Below are positions 822 to 22,690 of a stretch of DNA of 64,000 bases, in pieces (position 1 is the stretch's first letter; each line of letters begins with the position of its first letter). The position numbers were made by a program, and so were the translations under genes. Under the pieces are notes generated by a model. It did no database searches, was not told where the DNA came from, and was given only the letters and a program-made list of their open reading frames with translations. The stretch is from Candidatus Coatesiibacteriota bacterium (GTDB taxonomy: Bacteria > RBG-13-66-14 > B26-G2 > JAUVZD01), in contig JAUVZD010000011.1 in the NCBI GenBank assembly GCA_030602715.1, forward strand, positions 47,961 through 111,960, read 5' to 3'.

Positions 822-2585
822 TTACCCGCAGACCGCCTCCATTATCTCCGGCTCCAGATTGAATTTCTCCAGGAAAGCCCTGCGCTCCTCCTTCATCTTC
901 GCCACCCAGGCGTTATATTCGTCCAGCCTGCCCTCCTTCTCAAAGAACCGTCGGGGCTCAAGTATCTCAGCGGGGACTTTTTTTAGCAGTTCGGCATTTT
1001 CCGGCGCATCCGGATCGGCAATCTCATAGCCGAAGTCGGGGTCCTTCTTCCAGACGATCTTGCCGGCGAGCATCGCCTCCAGCATTGCCGAGGAGTGGCG
1101 AATCTTCACCTTGAGCGCACGCCCCTCCTGCTCGGCTCGGGCGTCGCCGCCGATATATCCGGTGTTCATAATCCACAAGTCCACATCCTTCAACGTCTCC
1201 GCCAGCTTGCTGAAGCGCTCCGCCTGAAGTCCCATAGTTTGGGGGAAGAAGGGTTGAGTGAAAGGCGAGCGTGTCTTACCCCGCTCTTTGCCGGCTGCGG
1301 AGGTCTTGGAGGTCTCCCCCAGCATGAAATAGCCCGCCGCCTGCTCAGGACATACGAAGCGGGCTATGCCCGGCGTTGCCGCATCATCCCCCTCATCACG
1401 ATTGAGGATGCCCATAGACCCCACCGGTGGAAGGTGCTGGGGGTCGGCGGCGTCCTTGATGGCGGACATGGGGATGATGGAGCGACCGTTCTCGGTCCAC
1501 ATCACGAAATCCCAGCCGTCGGCGGGGATACCCAGCTCGTCCACCACCTCCTCAAACTTCACCTCACCCTTGATATATTTATCCACATTCTCAGCTTGTG
1601 CTCCGGTCTCTATCAATATATCCCGCCACCGCTCCACATCTTGAGGTGAAAGTTCCTTTTTGGAGAAATCGTAGATGCCGTCGGGATTGATGAAGTTGTT
1701 CTCCAGCCAGGCGCTGGGATCTATAGTGCCACGGTAGATGGTCGGCTCCGCCTTCTCGGTCAGCCCGAAGGTCTTGGCGAAACACCCGTTCTCGGTAACG
1801 GTTACCTGTCCCCCTTCCCAGAGGCAGACCATATCATCCTGAGACGGCTTGGTCAGCTTACCCTGTTTGCTGAAGGTGGTGGTGGTCTTGCCGGTGCCGG
1901 AGAGTCCCATAATGGTCATGGTGACCGGCGGCTCATCCCCAATCTTCACAATCTTCGCCCCGGCGTGCATCACCAGTCCCCCTTGGCGATAGACATATTC
2001 ATTCAGCATACGCAGGGCGCCCTTCTTGGACTCGCCGAAATAGTCGGAGCCGATGACATAGGTAACGAAATTCTCCAAATCCACCAGCATAGCCACCTTG
2101 CCGGGCATATCCACAGGGATACATCCAGCGGTAAATACCAGCTGAAAGAGAGGTTCAAACGGTTTTGCTAACTGCTCCGGACTCTCCACCCGTTCCCGGG
2201 GGAAGGTGAGGGTCTTCTGCATACCGGCCAGGTTCGCCGATTCAAGGGAATAATACCATCTGACCGGGTAGGCAAAATCACCCAGACCCAAATAAGTTTC
2301 AATAGCTATCAGCTTTCCACTATCCTCAATATACTTCTTCTGGAACTGGATGAGCTCCTCCGCCTTTGCCGGGTCTATGGTCTCGCTGGAATACCTGCCC
2401 GCTTGGGATTCATCCGCTATGATATAAGTATACTGCGCCTTACGGGCTTTGAAGCGGGTTATCTTATCCAGGTTGTTATAGGCTGAGGTCAACACCGAGG
2501 GGACATGCTTGAGGGTCAACTCACGGAGCTCCTCTTGACTGGGGTTGGTGATCACCTCAACATTGAAGGAAAGTTCTTTAGCCAT
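822..2585 (-). CDS. pckA: phosphoenolpyruvate carboxykinase (ATP type)
   Basis: 587 residues. It interconverts oxaloacetate + ATP and PEP + CO2 + ADP. The P-loop GLSGTGKTTT near residue 228 is the ATP-class kinase-1a motif (GTP enzymes have a Cys-containing loop). GSDYFGESKKGALRMLNEY precedes it, as in ATP-type enzymes. A C-terminal TSKTSAAGKERGKT stretch corresponds to the conserved segment near the adenine site. The protein is somewhat longer than the usual 530-540 residues and is a divergent member. Start: the ATG at 2585 has AAGGAG 5 nt upstream; the in-frame GTG at 2591 overlaps that site. It has its own promoter and terminator. With ppdK nearby it feeds the C3/C4 node. Confidence 0.93.
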   Translation of the reverse strand: MAKELSFNVEVITNPSQEELRELTLKHVPSVLTSAYNNLDKITRFKARKAQYTYIIADESQAGRYSSETIDPAKAEELIQFQKKYIEDSGKLIAIETYLGLGDFAYPVRWYYSLESANLAGMQKTLTFPRERVESPEQLAKPFEPLFQLVFTAGCIPVDMPGKVAMLVDLENFVTYVIGSDYFGESKKGALRMLNEYVYRQGGLVMHAGAKIVKIGDEPPVTMTIMGLSGTGKTTTTFSKQGKLTKPSQDDMVCLWEGGQVTVTENGCFAKTFGLTEKAEPTIYRGTIDPSAWLENNFINPDGIYDFSKKELSPQDVERWRDILIETGAQAENVDKYIKGEVKFEEVVDELGIPADGWDFVMWTENGRSIIPMSAIKDAADPQHLPPVGSMGILNRDEGDDAATPGIARFVCPEQAAGYFMLGETSKTSAAGKERGKTRSPFTQPFFPQTMGLQAERFSKLAETLKDVDLWIMNTGYIGGDARAEQEGRALKVKIRHSSAMLEAMLAGKIVWKKDPDFGYEIADPDAPENAELLKKVPAEILEPRRFFEKEGRLDEYNAWVAKMKEERRAFLEKFNLEPEIMEAVCG

Positions 2586-2636
2586 CTCCACTCCTTAGGG
2601 ACGGGATAAAGCTTGTGAAAAAATGTTCAAGAATAT

Positions 2637-2665
2637 ATTGTATCAACAAAAAACCCCCATGTCAA
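2637..2665 (-). promoter_or_regulatory. promoter of pckA
   Basis: TTGACA, 17-bp spacer, TACAAT on the minus strand, about 50 bp before the start codon; near-consensus housekeeping promoter. Confidence 0.8.
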
Positions 2666-2738
2666 AGGAAATCGTTAGGGTTTTCCTCAAAATTTACCGG
2701 AAATTCAGGTTAATCAATTTTGATTGGCCCAATCCCCC

Positions 2739-3491
2739 TTACTCACCCTCCCAGCCCCGTGCCTTAACCACACCCCGCCAGAAGCCCTTGCGCAAAAAGT
2801 GGTTATCGTCCACATCTATCATCTGATAGAACATAGGCATATTCATGGTAAACGCCATCTCACAGGGGGGTAGATAACTGCGCATAGCCATATCGGAGGA
2901 GCCCAAGACCGCCCGGGGTTTATCCGGGTCGGCGTAGTTCACGAACGGATCAAGCAGAGAACAGCCGGAGCCCATAGTGGCTATGACCACATCGTCGGCG
3001 GGGTCAACGGTATAATAGTGCGCCCCGGTTATTAACGGCGCCAGCCGATCCGGGTCGGCAAAGAGGGTTACAGAAGTCATCCTGTCGGTATGCTCCACCC
3101 GAAAGGGACCCAAAAGGGTGTATTTTTCCCGGGGTCGGCGTCGTTTGGCGTCGTCCATCATCTCCTCTACAAGCTCCCTGCTCGCTTTGAGCCCCTCATC
3201 ACCATAGAGAAAATCAACGAAATCCTCCCGGTTGAGATGAGGCTCTGCCCCGCAGAGGTAGCGCCCTCCACCCCCACAGCCGGACCGCTCCTTGGTAAGA
3301 ACCAGGGTCCTATCTTTCTCCCAGGCGGGGTAGAAGGAGAAGACACAGGCATGACCCTCCTCTGGAGGATATACCACAGGTTCAAAGGGCTCCACCTCAT
3401 CTGCATCATACAAGGCAACAATCGGTCGGTCATAGTGGAGAAGCCCGAGGAATTCTTTCAGCCTGTCCTGCACCTCTTTTGCATCCATCAT
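2739..3491 (-). CDS. DUF169 family protein
   Basis: 250 residues, cytoplasmic, no signal peptide. The features match the DUF169 family: an N-terminal helix-rich part (LKEFLGLLHYDRPIVALY), a Cys/Gly-rich loop SGCGGGGRYLCG near residue 70, and the later motif ATMGSGCSLLDPF. The conserved cysteines suggest a metal or cofactor site; the biochemical role is not established in the family. It is followed by a short gap and pckA; the upstream neighbour is an EamA permease. Start chosen from GGGGAGAGG next to tandem ATGs. Confidence 0.8.
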   Translation of the reverse strand: MMDAKEVQDRLKEFLGLLHYDRPIVALYDADEVEPFEPVVYPPEEGHACVFSFYPAWEKDRTLVLTKERSGCGGGGRYLCGAEPHLNREDFVDFLYGDEGLKASRELVEEMMDDAKRRRPREKYTLLGPFRVEHTDRMTSVTLFADPDRLAPLITGAHYYTVDPADDVVIATMGSGCSLLDPFVNYADPDKPRAVLGSSDMAMRSYLPPCEMAFTMNMPMFYQMIDVDDNHFLRKGFWRGVVKARGWEGE

Positions 3492-3550
3492 CCTCTCCCC
3501 TTATTTTCAGTTGGGTTAACTTTTAGCCTATATTACTCAAACCAATCACT

Positions 3551-4426
3551 CTAACCCCGTAAGCCGATTACCAACACTCCTGAAGCGATGATACACGCTC
3601 CCAAGATGCGCCACAATATCGGTCGTTCTCTATAGAAGATAACCCCCATGGTGGCGCCGAAGGCTATGCTTACCTCCCGCACCCCGCTCACATAAGCCAG
3701 GGGGGCTAAGGTCATCGCCCACAACGAGAAGATATAACTGAAGGGGAAAACAACCCCCCCGGCGATCACCTGCTTCCAGGACACTCTAATTTCATTTAGA
3801 ATAAATTTCCTGCGAAAGATCAAGATAAAAGGCGTAAGGATGAGGAAAGTCGCCATTATCAGAAAATACATGTAGTGATAAGGTGGAAGGTAGGCTATTC
3901 CGATCTTATCAACAGAGTAAAAACCCCAAAGGGTTAAACCCACTCCAACGGACAGAAGAACTGTGCGCAGATTCACCGGGCGGGGATTGTTCCTTCCCCG
4001 GCGCATCAACATGAACACCCCCAGCACCACCACAGCAATGCCTAAAGTTCCCCACAAGGAGGGGAACTCCTTGAACAGGACTGTGGAAAATAAAGCGGTA
4101 AATACTATCCCTGAGCCCCGAGCGATGGGATAAGCCAAGGAGATATCACCGTAGGTATAAGCGGAGGTGAGCAGGAAAAAATATACAGCGTGGATGCAAC
4201 CGGTGGCTAGAAGGAAACCCCAGGCGGGCCAAGCCAGGTCGGAAATGTCAAAGGTTATGACGACCGGAATGGTATAGACCACCACCATAAAGCCGACCAC
4301 CAGCCACAGCGTTACCAGCTTATCCTCGCCGCCCTTGACGAAGAAGTTCCACAGAGCGTGGGTCAAAGCGGCGCAGATTATGAGGATGAAGGGCAGGAAG
4401 GGCATAAGTTGCCAAGATAGTAGCAT
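3551..4426 (-). CDS. EamA-family (DMT superfamily) permease
   Basis: 291 residues with about ten hydrophobic helices in two homologous halves, as in EamA/RhaT-type drug/metabolite transporters. The second half carries the characteristic FSYIFSLWAMTLAPLAYVSG and IAFGATMGVIFYRERP segments. The substrate cannot be told from sequence. An ATG at 4405 (MPFLPF) is an alternative start. It probably shares a transcript with the DUF169 gene downstream (59-bp gap). Confidence 0.85.
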   Translation of the reverse strand: MLLSWQLMPFLPFILIICAALTHALWNFFVKGGEDKLVTLWLVVGFMVVVYTIPVVITFDISDLAWPAWGFLLATGCIHAVYFFLLTSAYTYGDISLAYPIARGSGIVFTALFSTVLFKEFPSLWGTLGIAVVVLGVFMLMRRGRNNPRPVNLRTVLLSVGVGLTLWGFYSVDKIGIAYLPPYHYMYFLIMATFLILTPFILIFRRKFILNEIRVSWKQVIAGGVVFPFSYIFSLWAMTLAPLAYVSGVREVSIAFGATMGVIFYRERPILWRILGACIIASGVLVIGLRG

Positions 4427-4502
4427 AAATCTTAAGAGACGAGAGCCTTTTTGTTTCCTCTACAAAAAGGATTATCCGCTGATATTAAACTAAAAAATTT
4501 GA

Positions 4503-4527
4503 AACCAGGGGCATTGAACCCCTGGTT
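4503..4527 (-). terminator. rho-independent terminator of ppdK
   Basis: Arms AACCAGGGG / CCCCTGGTT around a short loop, followed on the minus strand by TCAAATTTTTT; 36 bp past the ppdK stop. Confidence 0.85.
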
Positions 4528-4562
4528 AATATCGGAGCGGTTCAAGAGACTTGCTCAATCTA

Positions 4563-7310
4563 TTACTTCTTTTCCTTCTTCCTCTCCTCCTCCTTCTTCT
4601 GCTCCCTCTCCTCAAGCACCGCCTGGGCGGCGGCAAGACGGGCGATGGGTACCCGATAGGGGGAACAGGAGACATAATCCAAGCCCAAGCGGTGGCAGAA
4701 CTTCACCGAATCCGGGTCTCCGCCGTGCTCACCGCAGATGCCCAACTTGATATCCTTTCGTTTTCCGCGCCCTTTCTGCACACAGATTTCCATCAACTGA
4801 CCTACCCCGTCAAAGTCTATGGTCTGGAAGGGGTCCCGTCTGAGGATGCCTTTGGAAGTATAATAAGCCAGGAACTTTCCGGCGTCGTCACGGGAGAAGC
4901 CGAAAGCGGTCTGGGTCAAGTCGTTGGTGCCGAAGGAGAAGAACTCCGCCACCTCGGCGATCTGGTCGGCGACCAAAGCGGCTCGGGGAAGCTCTATCAT
5001 AGTCCCTATCTTATACTCCAGCCGCACGCCCTGCTCCTCAAAGACCTTCTCCGCCACATCGCGCACCACCTCAGCTTGAAGCTCAAGCTCTTTGGCGATG
5101 CCCACCAAAGGAATCATTATCTCCGGCTTGACCTCTTTCCCCTCTTTGGACACCGCACAGGCTGCCTCCAGGATGGCTCGGGCTTGCATGGCGGTTATCT
5201 GGGGATAGACCACCCCTAAACGACAACCACGATGACCGAGCATGGGATTGGTTTCCGCCAAGCTCTCAACCTTGAATTTCAACTCCTCGTTGCTTACCCC
5301 CATCTTCTTCGCCAAATCCACTATCTCGTGCTCATCATCCGGCAAAAACTCGTGCAGGGGCGGGTCAAGGGTTCTGATGGTAACCGGAAGCCCCTCCATA
5401 ACCCGAAAGATACCCACAAAGTCCTCCCTCTGCATGGGCAGAATCTTAGCCAGAGCTTGCTCCCGTCCGGATGGGCTGTCGGCAAGAATCATCTCCCGCA
5501 CCGCATCAATGCGGTCCCCCTCAAAGAACATATGCTCGGTGCGACACAGCCCTATTCCCTCGGCGCCCAGCATGCGGGCAACATACGATTGATCGGGCTG
5601 GTCGGCGTTGGTAAAGACCCCCAACCGACGATACTCGTCCGACCAACTCATTATCTTATCAAAGAGCTGATAGGTGGGAGAATCCTCCGGCTTCATGTCC
5701 TTCTCTATCAACACACGAATGACATCCGAGGGCTGGGTGGGTAGCTCCCCTAGGATGACCTCGCCGGTTGAACCATCAAGGGAGATGAAGTCCCGGTCCT
5801 TGATGACGGTATCGTTGACGGTGATGGTGCGCTCCTGATAATCAATGTTCAGTTCATCACAACCAGCCACGCAGACGATACCCATCTGGCGGGCGACCAG
5901 CGCTGCGTGACTGGTCATCCCCCCTCGGCTGGTCAAGATGCCCTCAGCGACGGACATCCCCCGGATATCCTCCGGGCTGGTCTCCATGCGCACCAGAATT
6001 ACCGGCTCACCCTCACCGGCACGCTCCTCAGCCTCCTCCGGGAAGAAGCAGACCCGCCCGGAAGCGGCTCCCGGTCCGGCGTTCAATCCATGAGCAACCA
6101 CCCTACCCTCTTTTACCGCCTTCCTTTTCGCCTCCTGGTCAAAGATGGGACGGAGCAGTTGATTGAGTTGGTCCGGCTCCAGGCGCATCAAGGCTTGCTC
6201 TTTGGAGATCAACCCCTCCTCAACCATATCCACCGCTATCTTGATTGCCGCCAGACCGGTCCGTTTTCCCGCTCGGGTCTGTAACATCCACAGCTTGCCG
6301 TGCTCAAAGGTAAACTCCACATCCTGGACATCTTTGTAGTGCTCCTCTAATTTGTGGCGTATCCCATCCAGCTCTTTATATATCTTGGGCATCTCCTTTT
6401 CCAGGTCGGAGATGGGATGGGGATTGCGGATGCCGGCGACTACATCCTCGCCCTGGGCATCTATCAGATACTCGCCGAAGAAACTGTTCTCTCCAGTTGC
6501 CGGGTCACGGGTAAAAGCCACCCCGGTTCCGCTCTCCTCGCCGGTGTTGCCGAAAACCATAGCCTGCACATTAACCGCCGTGCCCCAGTCGTCGGGGATG
6601 TAATTCAACTGGCGGTAAGCGATAGCCCGGGGGTTATCCCAGGAGCTGAATACCGCATCTATAGCCCCCCAGAGCTGGTCGGAGGGGTTGTCGGGAAAGT
6701 CCAGACCCAACCGTTCTTTAATCATCCCCTTAAATCGGCGCACCAGCTCCTTGAGGTCCTCGGTGGTCAGGTCTATATCCTGCTCCACACCCTTTTCAGC
6801 CTTCATCTCCTCAATTATAGCCTCAAAGGGGTCGGTCTCTTCTTTGCTCTCCGGCCTTAAGTCCATGACTACATCGCCATACATCTGCACAAAACGGCGA
6901 TAACTGTCCCAGGCGGCACGGGGATTGTCCATGGAATCAGCCAAACCCCCTACCGTCTCGTCGTTTAAGCCGATGTTCAACACCGTATCCATCATACCGG
7001 GCATGGAGACCCGAGCCCCGGAACGAACCGAGACCAGCAGTGGGTTAGCCTTATCCCCGAAGCCCCGCCCCATGACCTTCTCCAATTTAGCCAGAGCCTC
7101 CTCCACCTGCTTCTTCATCCCCTGCGGGTATTTCTTGTTTCTATAGAAATACACGCAGGCTTCCGTGGTTATGGTGAAGCCGGGAGGGACGGGGATACCG
7201 ATGACAGCCATCTCCGCCAGGTTACTTCCCTTTCCTCCCAGTAAGTTGCGCAACTCTTTAGACCCTTCGGCCAAATCTCCGCTGAAGAAATAGACATGTT
7301 TGTCTGCCAT
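4563..7310 (-). CDS. ppdK: pyruvate, phosphate dikinase
   Basis: 915 residues. It catalyses ATP + Pi + pyruvate to AMP + PPi + PEP, reversibly, in the cytosol. An N-terminal ATP-grasp domain ([10 protein letters not shown] at about 27) is followed by the phosphohistidine domain with [15 protein letters not shown] (catalytic His near 464) and the C-terminal PEP-binding barrel ending in CGEHGGDP (catalytic Cys near 856). The C-terminus is a Lys/Glu tail. Start: the ATG at 7310 (MADKHVYFF) with GGGAGGA upstream matches the family; frame extends to 7391 without a better start. It is usually around 880 residues, so it is full length. Confidence 0.96.
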
Positions 7311-16318: not shown

Positions 16319-16391
16319 GGGCCCATAGCTCAGCTGGCAGAGCTACCGGCTCATAACCGGTTGGTCTCAGGTTCGAATCCTGATGGGCCCA
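16319..16391 (+). tRNA. tRNA-Met (CAT)
   Basis: 73 nt. The acceptor arms GGGCCCA / TGGGCCC pair fully, and the anticodon stem ACCGG/CCGGT holds loop CTCATAA. The paired first base argues against the initiator. A tRNA-Ile with modified CAU anticodon cannot be excluded. The 3' CCA is not encoded. Confidence 0.9.
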
Positions 16392-16414: not shown

Positions 16415-16487
16415 GGGCGGATAGCTCAGTCGGTAGAGCGCTGCTTTCACAGAGCAGAAGTCGCAGGTTCGAGCCCTGTTCCGCCCA
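16415..16487 (+). tRNA. tRNA-Val (CAC)
   Basis: 73 nt. Acceptor GGGCGGA / TCCGCCC, anticodon stem CTGCT/AGCAG, loop TTCACAG giving anticodon CAC. CCA not encoded. Its last 38 nt are duplicated exactly at 17314-17351, a typical integration signature at a tRNA gene. Confidence 0.9.
16450..16487 (+). repeat. direct repeat copy 1 (3' half of tRNA-Val; attL-like)
   Basis: Identical over 38 nt to 17314-17351. It starts in the anticodon loop and ends at the discriminator base, the part of a tRNA usually used as an attachment site. Confidence 0.85.
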
Positions 16488-16596
16488 TTATTTATGGTAT
16501 ATGCTAATAGCTTTTATTCTGGGTAAGTTTGTGGGGGTAAGTAATTGTGCTGAATGAGATAGGAATAAAAGCGGGATGGTTTTTTGGGGAGACAAA

Positions 16597-16890
16597 ATGA
16601 AAACTCTAAACGGAATACAATCACTACTCAGTAAACATAAGCGGGAAATCGCCGAAAAATATAAAGTAAAGGATATTGGAGTATTCGGTTCCTTTGTGCA
16701 TAACAGGCAGAAGATGGGAAGCGATATTGACCTGCTGGTGGATTTTAAGGAGACAATAGATTTTTTTGAATTTCTAGAACTGGAGGAATATCTCAGCGAA
16801 CTTCTGGAGATAAAAGTGGACCTAGTAATGAAATCCACCCTCAAACCGAAAATAGGAGAACGGATACTAAGCGAGGTCATCTATGTCTGA
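16597..16890 (+). CDS. mntA: MntA-type nucleotidyltransferase antitoxin
   Basis: 97 residues, minimal nucleotidyltransferase. Motif GVFGSFVHNRQKMGSDIDLL holds the GSF...D.D active site. MntA antitoxins AMPylate a Tyr of their partner HepT and so silence it. The ATG at 16597 is preferred to one at 16576 because the family starts near here. It overlaps hepT by 8 bp. It lies inside the islet between the two tRNA-Val repeats. Confidence 0.85.
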   Translation: MKTLNGIQSLLSKHKREIAEKYKVKDIGVFGSFVHNRQKMGSDIDLLVDFKETIDFFEFLELEEYLSELLEIKVDLVMKSTLKPKIGERILSEVIYV

Positions 16891-17241
16891 TGACAGGACT
16901 AATATAGACTATGTCCGAGATATTGTGGATGAACTGCACAGAATATTGAAATTTACCAAGAAAAAATCCTACGAAAGTTTCAGCAAAGATGACAAGACCA
17001 TCTATGCGGTTATCCACTCCTTTGAGATAATCGGCGAAGCGGCTAAAAAGATACCTCAGAACATAACAGGTAAATTCCTGATATCCCCTGGAAGAGGATG
17101 TCCGGTATGAGAGACAAGTTAATCCATGAATACTTCGGGGTGGATATTAAAACTCTGTGGAAGACAATCCAGAAAAGAGTGCCGGAGACAATCCCATTAG
17201 CGGAAAAGCTGCTTCAGGAACTGGAAAGGAAAGACGATTAG
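16883..17241 (+). pseudogene. hepT: hepT-like HEPN toxin, frameshifted
   Basis: The first frame (16883-17110) gives the HepT N-terminal half, including FEIIGEAAKKIPQNI, then runs out of family at about 17072. The other frame continues IPDIPWKRMSGMRDKLIHEY to a stop at 17241. That part holds the RNase motif R-x4-H-x-Y (RDKLIHEY). A single missing base in the A-run near 17072-17074 explains the break. Intact HepT is about 110-140 residues, so the toxin would be truncated before its active site unless frameshifting or sequencing error intervenes. Confidence 0.85.
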
Positions 17242-17313
17242 AAAATTATAAATATGCTAAGAATTCACTGTATTTGAAAATTTTTTAGACCTTTCATATT
17301 TTCCCCGCTTTTT

Positions 17314-17351
17314 CAGAGCAGAAGTCGCAGGTTCGAGCCCTGTTCCGCCCA
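17314..17351 (+). repeat. direct repeat copy 2 (tRNA-Val 3' end; attR-like)
   Basis: Exact 38-nt copy of 16450-16487, with no tRNA 5' half. The bases just upstream (GCTTTTT against GCTTTCA) also partly match. It marks the right edge of the 864-bp islet with mntA-hepT. Confidence 0.85.
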
Positions 17352-17367: not shown

Positions 17368-18477
17368 ATGATCTTTAGAAAAAACATAATCGTGTTTTTT
17401 CTGGTGGGTATATCACCGCTGTTTCTATTCTGTGACTATGAAACCCAACCAAAATCACCAACCAACCCACTGGGGGCAAAGAACATAACCGCAGGCAATG
17501 GCTTAAATGAAGGACCCGTGCATTTCAGCTATGATGGTTCAATTATGTATTACACAACACAAGAATACATCTATGACCATTATACCTGGCTTTGGCAGTA
17601 TGCAGGCGACCCAGAACTCCATTTCTGGCATCTAGAATATGAGGATTATGTAACCGCTGGACAGTTCCCACATCTTTCCGCAGATAATCAATATGTGGCT
17701 TACTCTGGGATAGATTGGGGTGGCTTGTATCAAGATGTATATAAATTTGATGCCATGAATCCCGCAGAGCATACCCCCCTAACCAACCTGCCCTGGATCT
17801 ACCAAGCCTTTGCCAGATACTGGCTACATGACAGCGATTATCTTCTCTGCCTCTCAGACAAAGACCGCGCCGAACCCCACGGGCTTTCCAACCCGGAGAT
17901 ATATCTCCTGCATAAAGATGGGGATACACCCGAAAACCCCATGATTCGCCTAACCTGGACAGAGGAATACGAATGCCCACATCAACCGTTAATAAGCCCC
18001 GACGACCAATGGGTTTACTACTGGCACTATCACTGCTTCTATCCCAACGAGCACTCCGACCTGTGGAAGGTCAAAACCGACGGCAGCGGTGAAAGGTATC
18101 AGATAGATTTTCCGGACACCTATGGTGTAGTGCGTATCAATGATATATCCCCCGATGGGCGTTGGTTGGCTCTACATCGTTCTCTAGATGAAGATGAGTG
18201 GGCTACTCAGTGGCAGATCTGCTACATTCCAGTTGAGGGCGGTGAACCAAGAATGTTCTTTGAACCGGTTAGCTATTACTTCGGAAAAGTTGCTTTTGTC
18301 CCCGGCTACGACCTTATCGCCTTCGTCTCGGACTTAGACCACCCCGGCGGTGAGACGGACATCTATGTCTATCCCTTCAATCCGGATGATGAGACCGGGG
18401 CACTGGATTTTGCCGAAATGGATAGATTCCAGTTGGATTTCAATCCGTGGAACTTCTTTGGGAATATTACAATCTAA
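17368..18477 (+). CDS. TolB-like beta-propeller lipoprotein
   Basis: 369 residues. Signal peptide with lipobox SPLFLFCDYE (Cys near 22). Repeated PD40/WD40-like blades follow (HFSYDGSIMYYTT, PHLSADNQYVAYSG, PLISPDDQWVYYWHY, NDISPDGRWLALHR), as in TolB-type six-bladed propellers. Probably on the outer face of a membrane. The start lies 16 bp after the right tRNA repeat, so the islet probably inserted upstream of this gene. No strong ribosome site is seen. Confidence 0.75.
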   Translation: MIFRKNIIVFFLVGISPLFLFCDYETQPKSPTNPLGAKNITAGNGLNEGPVHFSYDGSIMYYTTQEYIYDHYTWLWQYAGDPELHFWHLEYEDYVTAGQFPHLSADNQYVAYSGIDWGGLYQDVYKFDAMNPAEHTPLTNLPWIYQAFARYWLHDSDYLLCLSDKDRAEPHGLSNPEIYLLHKDGDTPENPMIRLTWTEEYECPHQPLISPDDQWVYYWHYHCFYPNEHSDLWKVKTDGSGERYQIDFPDTYGVVRINDISPDGRWLALHRSLDEDEWATQWQICYIPVEGGEPRMFFEPVSYYFGKVAFVPGYDLIAFVSDLDHPGGETDIYVYPFNPDDETGALDFAEMDRFQLDFNPWNFFGNITI

Positions 18478-20464: not shown

Positions 20465-20824
20465 TTAGGAAGCATCTCGCCCGGACCTGGCGGAACAGCA
20501 ACCGCTGGCAAGCCTCTCATTCAACCTCTCCCGGTCCTCAATTATGAGCTTATCTTCGGCAATTTGAGCCAGTATCGCCGATATGGTACCCATAAACTCT
20601 GCATTTGACTTATCAATAGAATAATGCACCCATCTCTCCACCCGTTTGGCGCAGACTATCCCCGCGTGGCGCAAGACCGCACAGTGGCGAGAGACCGTCG
20701 GCTGGGAGAGCCCCAGGACGGCGACCAGGTCGCAGACGCAGAGAGGTCCGTCGCTGAGCAGAGAGAGGATTCGCAGACGAGTGGGGTTGGCGCAAGCTTG
20801 AAGCATTTGGATGATTTTTTCCAT
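20465..20824 (-). CDS. arsR: ArsR-family metalloregulator
   Basis: 119 residues, winged helix. It has ANPTRLRILSLLSDGPLCVCDL, with the CxC metal site of ArsR repressors in helix alpha-3, the recognition helix LSQPTVSRHCAVLRHAGIV, and a C-terminal SGCCSARSG that may add ligands. It represses at a site overlapping its own promoter (20865-20883). It leads the minus-strand operon with the thioredoxin-like protein and permease. A truncated paralogue lies at 22571-22690. Confidence 0.92.
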   Translation of the reverse strand: MEKIIQMLQACANPTRLRILSLLSDGPLCVCDLVAVLGLSQPTVSRHCAVLRHAGIVCAKRVERWVHYSIDKSNAEFMGTISAILAQIAEDKLIIEDRERLNERLASGCCSARSGRDAS

Positions 20825-22570: not shown

Positions 22571-22690
22571 TTATCCCTTCCCTCCGGCCCCCAGGTCACA
22601 GACGCAGAGAGGTCCGTCGGAAAGCAGGGCTAAGATGCGCAGCCTGGTCGCATCCGCACACGCCCGCAACATATTGACGACATTATCCAT
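22571..22690 (-). pseudogene. truncated arsR paralogue
   Basis: 39 residues from the ATG at 22690. It reads MDNVVNMLRACADATRLRIL, then ALLSDGPLCVCDL, then diverges (GAGGKG) and stops at 22571. It matches the first 33 or so residues of the arsR at 20465-20824, then loses the recognition helix and dimer region. The 20-mer agacgcagagaggtccgtcg occurs in both copies. Promoter and operator are still present upstream. Confidence 0.85.

Follow-up and report, generated by a model that had tools for sequence, protein, structure and literature searches.

In the window, a 64,000-nt stretch of contig JAUVZD010000011.1 from a Candidatus Coatesiibacteriota genome, a tRNA-Val gene is followed by an islet of inserted DNA that carries an mntA-hepT toxin-antitoxin (TA) pair and ends in a second copy of the tRNA 3' end. 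We tentatively assign the islet to a widespread class of TA units that measure less than a kilobase and are framed by gene ends, for which additive recombination by the host is the most likely route of entry. TA pairs are frequent on chromosomes, where their distribution is patchy, and the way in which modules this small jump between chromosomes without mobility genes is a standing question. The pattern described here points to a way in which small TA modules move without enzymes of their own. Gene-end framing is more general than the tRNA-Val case, and it is the class, not the islet, that is the interesting part.

The target gene, tRNA-Val(CAC) at 16415 to 16487 on the forward strand, was found by ARAGORN to be intact beside the islet. 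Its 3' part, which starts at base 3 of the anticodon and includes the final base of the tRNA (16450 to 16487, forward strand), recurs at 17314 to 17351 on the same strand, with a start-to-start distance of 864 nt; the right copy is the displaced 3' end of the gene. The exact 38-bp duplication reported in the preliminary description was confirmed at 38/38 nt, and similarity extends leftward at 43 of 45 positions (16443 to 16487 versus 17307 to 17351). A chance origin of the repeat is excluded, because its 28-nt core, with up to 3 mismatches allowed, occurred twice in the window and not once in 100 shuffles, and because the 38-mer is found only twice in the 2.31-Mb genome (18 contigs), both times at this islet. 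The upstream neighbor, tRNA-Met (16319 to 16391, forward strand, ARAGORN), and the downstream neighbor, a gene for a PD40-repeat protein (17368 to 18477, forward strand), lie outside the islet. Among the 45 tRNA genes of the genome, tRNA-Val alone has a free exact copy of its 3' end nearby. A diverged 59-nt copy (88%) of the 3' part of tRNA-Asn lies about 3.2 kb away from that gene in the same genome (L053:11196-14449, contig C10), with a TPR/ATPase gene in between; this is a second, older tRNA-associated insert.

The insert between the repeat copies is 826 bp long (16488 to 17313, forward strand) and low in GC, at about 0.39 versus 0.50 to 0.67 in the genes upstream. Its first gene, mntA (16597 to 16890, forward strand), encodes a minimal nucleotidyltransferase antitoxin of 97 aa that matched PF01909 (NTP_transf_2) at an E value of 2.1e-15 and PADLOC PDC-S09 at 7e-31. 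The motifs GSX10DXD of MntA and RX4HXY of HepT have been described for the HepT/MntA system (PMC7641770), and the former is present here as GSFVHNRQKMGSDID. The hepT gene is split by a frameshift into a first part at 16883 to 17110 (forward strand; PF01934 positions 3 to 51, E value of 9e-10) and a second part in another frame at 17107 to 17241 (forward strand; PF01934 positions 86 to 119, E value of 3e-8), which holds the RX4HXY motif as RDKLIHEY; an intact HEPN toxin gene is therefore not present. The toxin is thus probably inactive, or the assembly is wrong at that spot. Besides the two genes, the islet contained no integrase, as had been described before, and no transposase-sized open reading frame (ORF); the frameshift in hepT is a correction to the earlier account. 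The likeness to the type VII TA system HepT/MntA lies in a PF01909 gene adjoining a PF01934 gene and in both motifs (PMC7641770); the differences are that the toxin gene is frameshifted here and that MntA scored 43.6 bits against the NCBIfam MntA model, below the equivalog cut-off of 60. The tRNA-Val islet itself is a decaying example of its class.

There is good support for an origin of the islet by insertion, from its foreign composition, from the displaced tRNA end at its far side, from the tRNA-Val loci of relatives, and from the empty sites of sister insertions. No free second copy of the tRNA end was present at the tRNA-Val(CAC) loci examined in islet-free relatives, the nearest of which belongs to the same order, and a contig search anchored on fumarase returned distant relatives only, none of which could serve as an empty tRNA-Val site. 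In 14 genomes of the phylum, neither a DNA-level relative of the whole 826-bp insert nor a related larger element was detected. An exact search with the 38-mer gave no match in IMG/VR viral contigs, and a search for MntA gave none in viral contigs and phages. One genome of the same class (G003) has two identical, whole tRNA-Val(CAC) genes at a distance of 1092 nt, each followed by similar sequence (L034, G003:C7); this is a different situation from that of the islet.

Two sister insertions have empty sites in related genomes, at genes that we take from their sequences to be sat and gcvH. Another genus of the class has mntA-hepT pairs behind sat in three of its genomes, where 54 to 111 nt of the sat 3' end are repeated. 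In a genome of the same genus without HepT (G006), the site is empty and sat stands directly before the same next gene. One of the three sat genomes also has a pair before gcvH, preceded by 58 nt that copy the 5' end of this gene, and two congeners (G002 and G004) have gcvH with neither gene-end copy nor TA pair. The truncated gcvH copy has lineage-specific bases in common with the intact gene, which suits a local duplication as well as a donor. At locus L186 (reverse strand 2360 to 5443, G003:C19), about 3 kb are inserted before gcvH relative to G004; this insert contains stacked units, in one of which a 252-aa ORF is preceded by a copy (161 nt, 75%) of the end of the upstream gene.

The same anatomy was found elsewhere in the genome of the islet. 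Two different mntA-hepT pairs stand in tandem behind an iron-sulfur/HdrB-like ORF, as units of 932 and 862 nt, and the 3' end of this ORF recurs after each pair (43 nt at 88% and 109 nt at 90%). A fourth pair follows another ORF, and the final 30 nt of that ORF recur with 87% identity. A DUF4258/DUF2283 pair, which is toxin-antitoxin-like, lies between two nucleotide-sugar genes (L070:14334-14914, contig C12), with a copy of the downstream gene's 5' end (42 nt, 95%) as its frame. The tRNA is not the special part: small-cargo inserts are framed by a copy of the end of an adjacent gene, and duplication of a tRNA 3' end alone is no proof of an integrase.

The preliminary description had taken the exact tRNA duplication as the mark of site-specific integration. 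The part of this claim that makes the islet inserted DNA was supported, but the specific claim of tRNA-directed, site-specific integration was not, since the same type of TA unit and repeat occurs at many unrelated protein genes, including those of the same genome. In addition, the genome's two tyrosine recombinases had XerC and XerD as their best NCBIfam matches, both below the equivalog cut-offs, and no serine recombinase or phage-type integrase was found in the genome. A tRNA-specific integrase and shrinkage of an island are both possible, and both explain less than additive integration of a TA unit.

HepT loci were drawn from 145 genomes, and a locus was scored as positive when a direct repeat of at least 40 bits tightly framed the pair. 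Such repeats were present at 7 of 15 mntA-hepT loci in the phylum, a count that overstates independence since the sat loci of three species probably stem from one event, and at 23 of 79 loci outside it. In the control, random intervals were placed in loci pooled from within the phylum and from unrelated genomes, and 9 of 1200 were positive, giving Fisher P values of 9e-11 for the phylum and 1e-22 for loci outside it. The count of 23/79 replaces 24/80 after removal of L247, an artefact that a short flank had produced. Four weak positives were counted, namely L225 with short-period repeats and L248, L255, and L272, whose repeats resemble dispersed elements more than gene ends; without these four, the proportion outside the phylum was 19/75, still far above the control. 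Two HepT positives (L271 and L281) are in single-contig genomes, which speaks against assembly error as the cause of the pattern. Outside the phylum, no repeat was detected at about 70% of the mntA-hepT loci. For ParE/RelE loci, scored in somewhat wider windows than in the HepT survey, 6 of 27 were positive and at least 4 of these were strong. Seven plasmids carried distant MntA homologues; at the loci of five of these plasmids, no strong flanking repeat and one weak match were found. At higBA and prlF-yhaV of Escherichia coli K-12, no flanking repeats were found. With the footprint at roughly one-third of mntA-hepT loci in many lineages, the question of TA mobility becomes directly testable: the footprint names the boundaries of insertion, provides empty alleles, and predicts that the toxin restrains recombination-dependent loss.

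Most repeats with a readable context were the 3' end of an upstream, co-directional gene; fewer came from the 5' end of a gene or, where the neighbor was convergent, from its 3' end. The inserts had a median size of 791 bp (quartiles, 714 to 877). With gene starts taken mechanically, the median distance was 60 nt from the left repeat to mntA and 27 nt from hepT to the right repeat. Repeat length varied across loci from 30 to 219 nt, and many repeats were >90% identical. In ten cases with an upstream gene, the homology stopped at the 3' end of the gene in all ten; similarity reached 23 to 206 nt into the gene, and the run of identity beyond the end was 0 to 9 nt, after which it was near background. 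This is the look of integration that regenerates a gene end, and it speaks against random target duplication. In a comparison meant to separate a donor origin of the gene end from self-duplication, the codon positions of the repeat differences were intermediate, with 83 of 161 at third positions and 65 synonymous versus 64 nonsynonymous codons. Among 26 units, no terminal motif common to the inserts rose above shuffles, and repeats of different loci had no cross-similarity, their target sequences being unrelated. Instead of the attC-type sites common to integron gene cassettes, the units have copies of gene ends that are unrelated between loci, and the conserved ends and transposase of a transposon or insertion sequence were not found. 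At one gene end, two different TA pairs were stacked, with hepT genes 46% (L183) and 45% (L185) identical, which shows that the gene end serves as an attachment sequence.

Shrinkage of a larger element to its addiction module, which had been offered as one origin of the islet, is a serious rival, though unlikely. A tyrosine-recombinase island at the gene end would have lost everything except the TA pair, leaving the remnant of a cis-mobilizable element (CIME) with attL and attR. The tRNA-Val repeat begins in the anticodon loop, a usual place of crossover, and the older insert at tRNA-Asn, about 3.2 kb in size, is in favor of such an island as well. IMEs and CIMEs are flanked by repeats of a gene end, regenerate the target gene, and undergo accretion at attR (PMC5704250), and partial loss of islands leaving HEPN/MNT or other TA pairs in Pseudomonas aeruginosa provides a precedent (PMC5481352). 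However, erosion should leave variable debris, whereas the roughly 30 loci are uniformly compact, as their median gaps indicate, although many of their repeats are young; the genome also lacks a phage-type integrase and a serine recombinase. Compactness and young repeats thus argue against shrinkage as the general route. Mobilization in trans of a compact element by the integrase of another element using the same gene end would account for the compactness, the gene-end homology, and the tandem accretion of different TA pairs, but a separate integrase would be needed for each of >20 unrelated gene ends in a setting where the genome has only XerC/XerD-like enzymes. The repeats have no core motif in common and the 38-mer is absent from IMG/VR contigs, and we consider this origin improbable.

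Illegitimate insertion with a long target duplication, by template switching in replication or repair of a staggered break, is also improbable. The insert would then have been kept by TA addiction and by the intact neighbor gene, in line with the lack of conserved ends, the wide range of repeat lengths, and the lineage-specific bases in the duplicated piece of gcvH. Random duplication would, however, overrun the gene 3' end as often as it stopped there, unlike the ten cases above, and two different pairs at one gene end would be unlikely. Random long target duplication was rejected as the first-choice route because homology stops at gene ends. The least probable explanation is a remnant of tandem tRNA-Val genes without insertion, or an assembly chimera. 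Tandem copies do occur in the phylum, as in G003, but at the islet the second copy comprises no more than the 3' half of the gene, the DNA in between is foreign and low in GC, and the pattern recurs at protein genes, including those of single-contig genomes.

Additive integration by the host is favored here because the search of the genome gave no serine recombinase and, among tyrosine recombinases, none but the two XerC/XerD-like proteins. For this route we infer a circular intermediate, host recombination, and retention by addiction. The incoming unit would consist of the TA pair and a copy of the gene end and would carry no recombinase of its own. Homologous recombination by the host, in a circular or some other additive form and with the gene end as its anchor, would add the unit without harm to the gene. 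The upstream gene would receive its complete 3' end from the unit, while the displaced native end would stay on the far side. Recombination between the repeats should then be able to remove the unit precisely, and the TA pair would select against such loss; in the tRNA-Val islet, with its frameshifted toxin gene, this brake on loss is probably gone. The model of additive integration gives no account of how a TA pair first couples to a new gene end. A broader reading, possible but doubtful, is that TA pairs form a broad recombinase-free mobile class that uses host gene ends as homology arms. Units would be looped out or transferred as TA pair plus gene end and would re-enter by host recombination at the same gene end in another genome, with tandem stacking and with loss punished by the toxin.

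Several features of the inserts are known from CIMEs, gene-end IMEs, and genomic islands, namely direct repeats at a gene 3' or 5' end, a regenerated gene, and tandem accretion (PMC5704250). The inserts described here differ in that they are sub-kilobase, have the TA pair as main or only cargo, and use >20 unrelated targets, with no integrase debris and no phage-type recombinase in the host genome. As reported previously, HEPN-MNT pairs are inserted in otherwise syntenic loci of Thermus and Deinococcus (Makarova et al. 2009; PMC2701414), which is similar to the present observations; the term "direct repeats" is absent from that paper, and no insertion mechanism was found in it. In the one literature library searched, no published description of gene-end duplications framing TA pairs was found.

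Cargo other than TA pairs was also observed with the same anatomy. In the genome of the islet, an insert with an HNH-endonuclease ORF and another ORF (L079:13626-16149, contig C9) is framed by a copy (171 nt, 92%) of sequence from the beginning of a helicase-like gene. Within the window, a 58-nt piece of an arsR-family gene at 20719 to 20776 recurs at 22585 to 22642 with 81% identity. The stretch between these fragments is low in GC (about 0.35) and holds a 195-aa ORF, a DsbD-like membrane protein, and a thioredoxin-like ORF, and it has the appearance of a further insert with a fragment of a gene as its frame.
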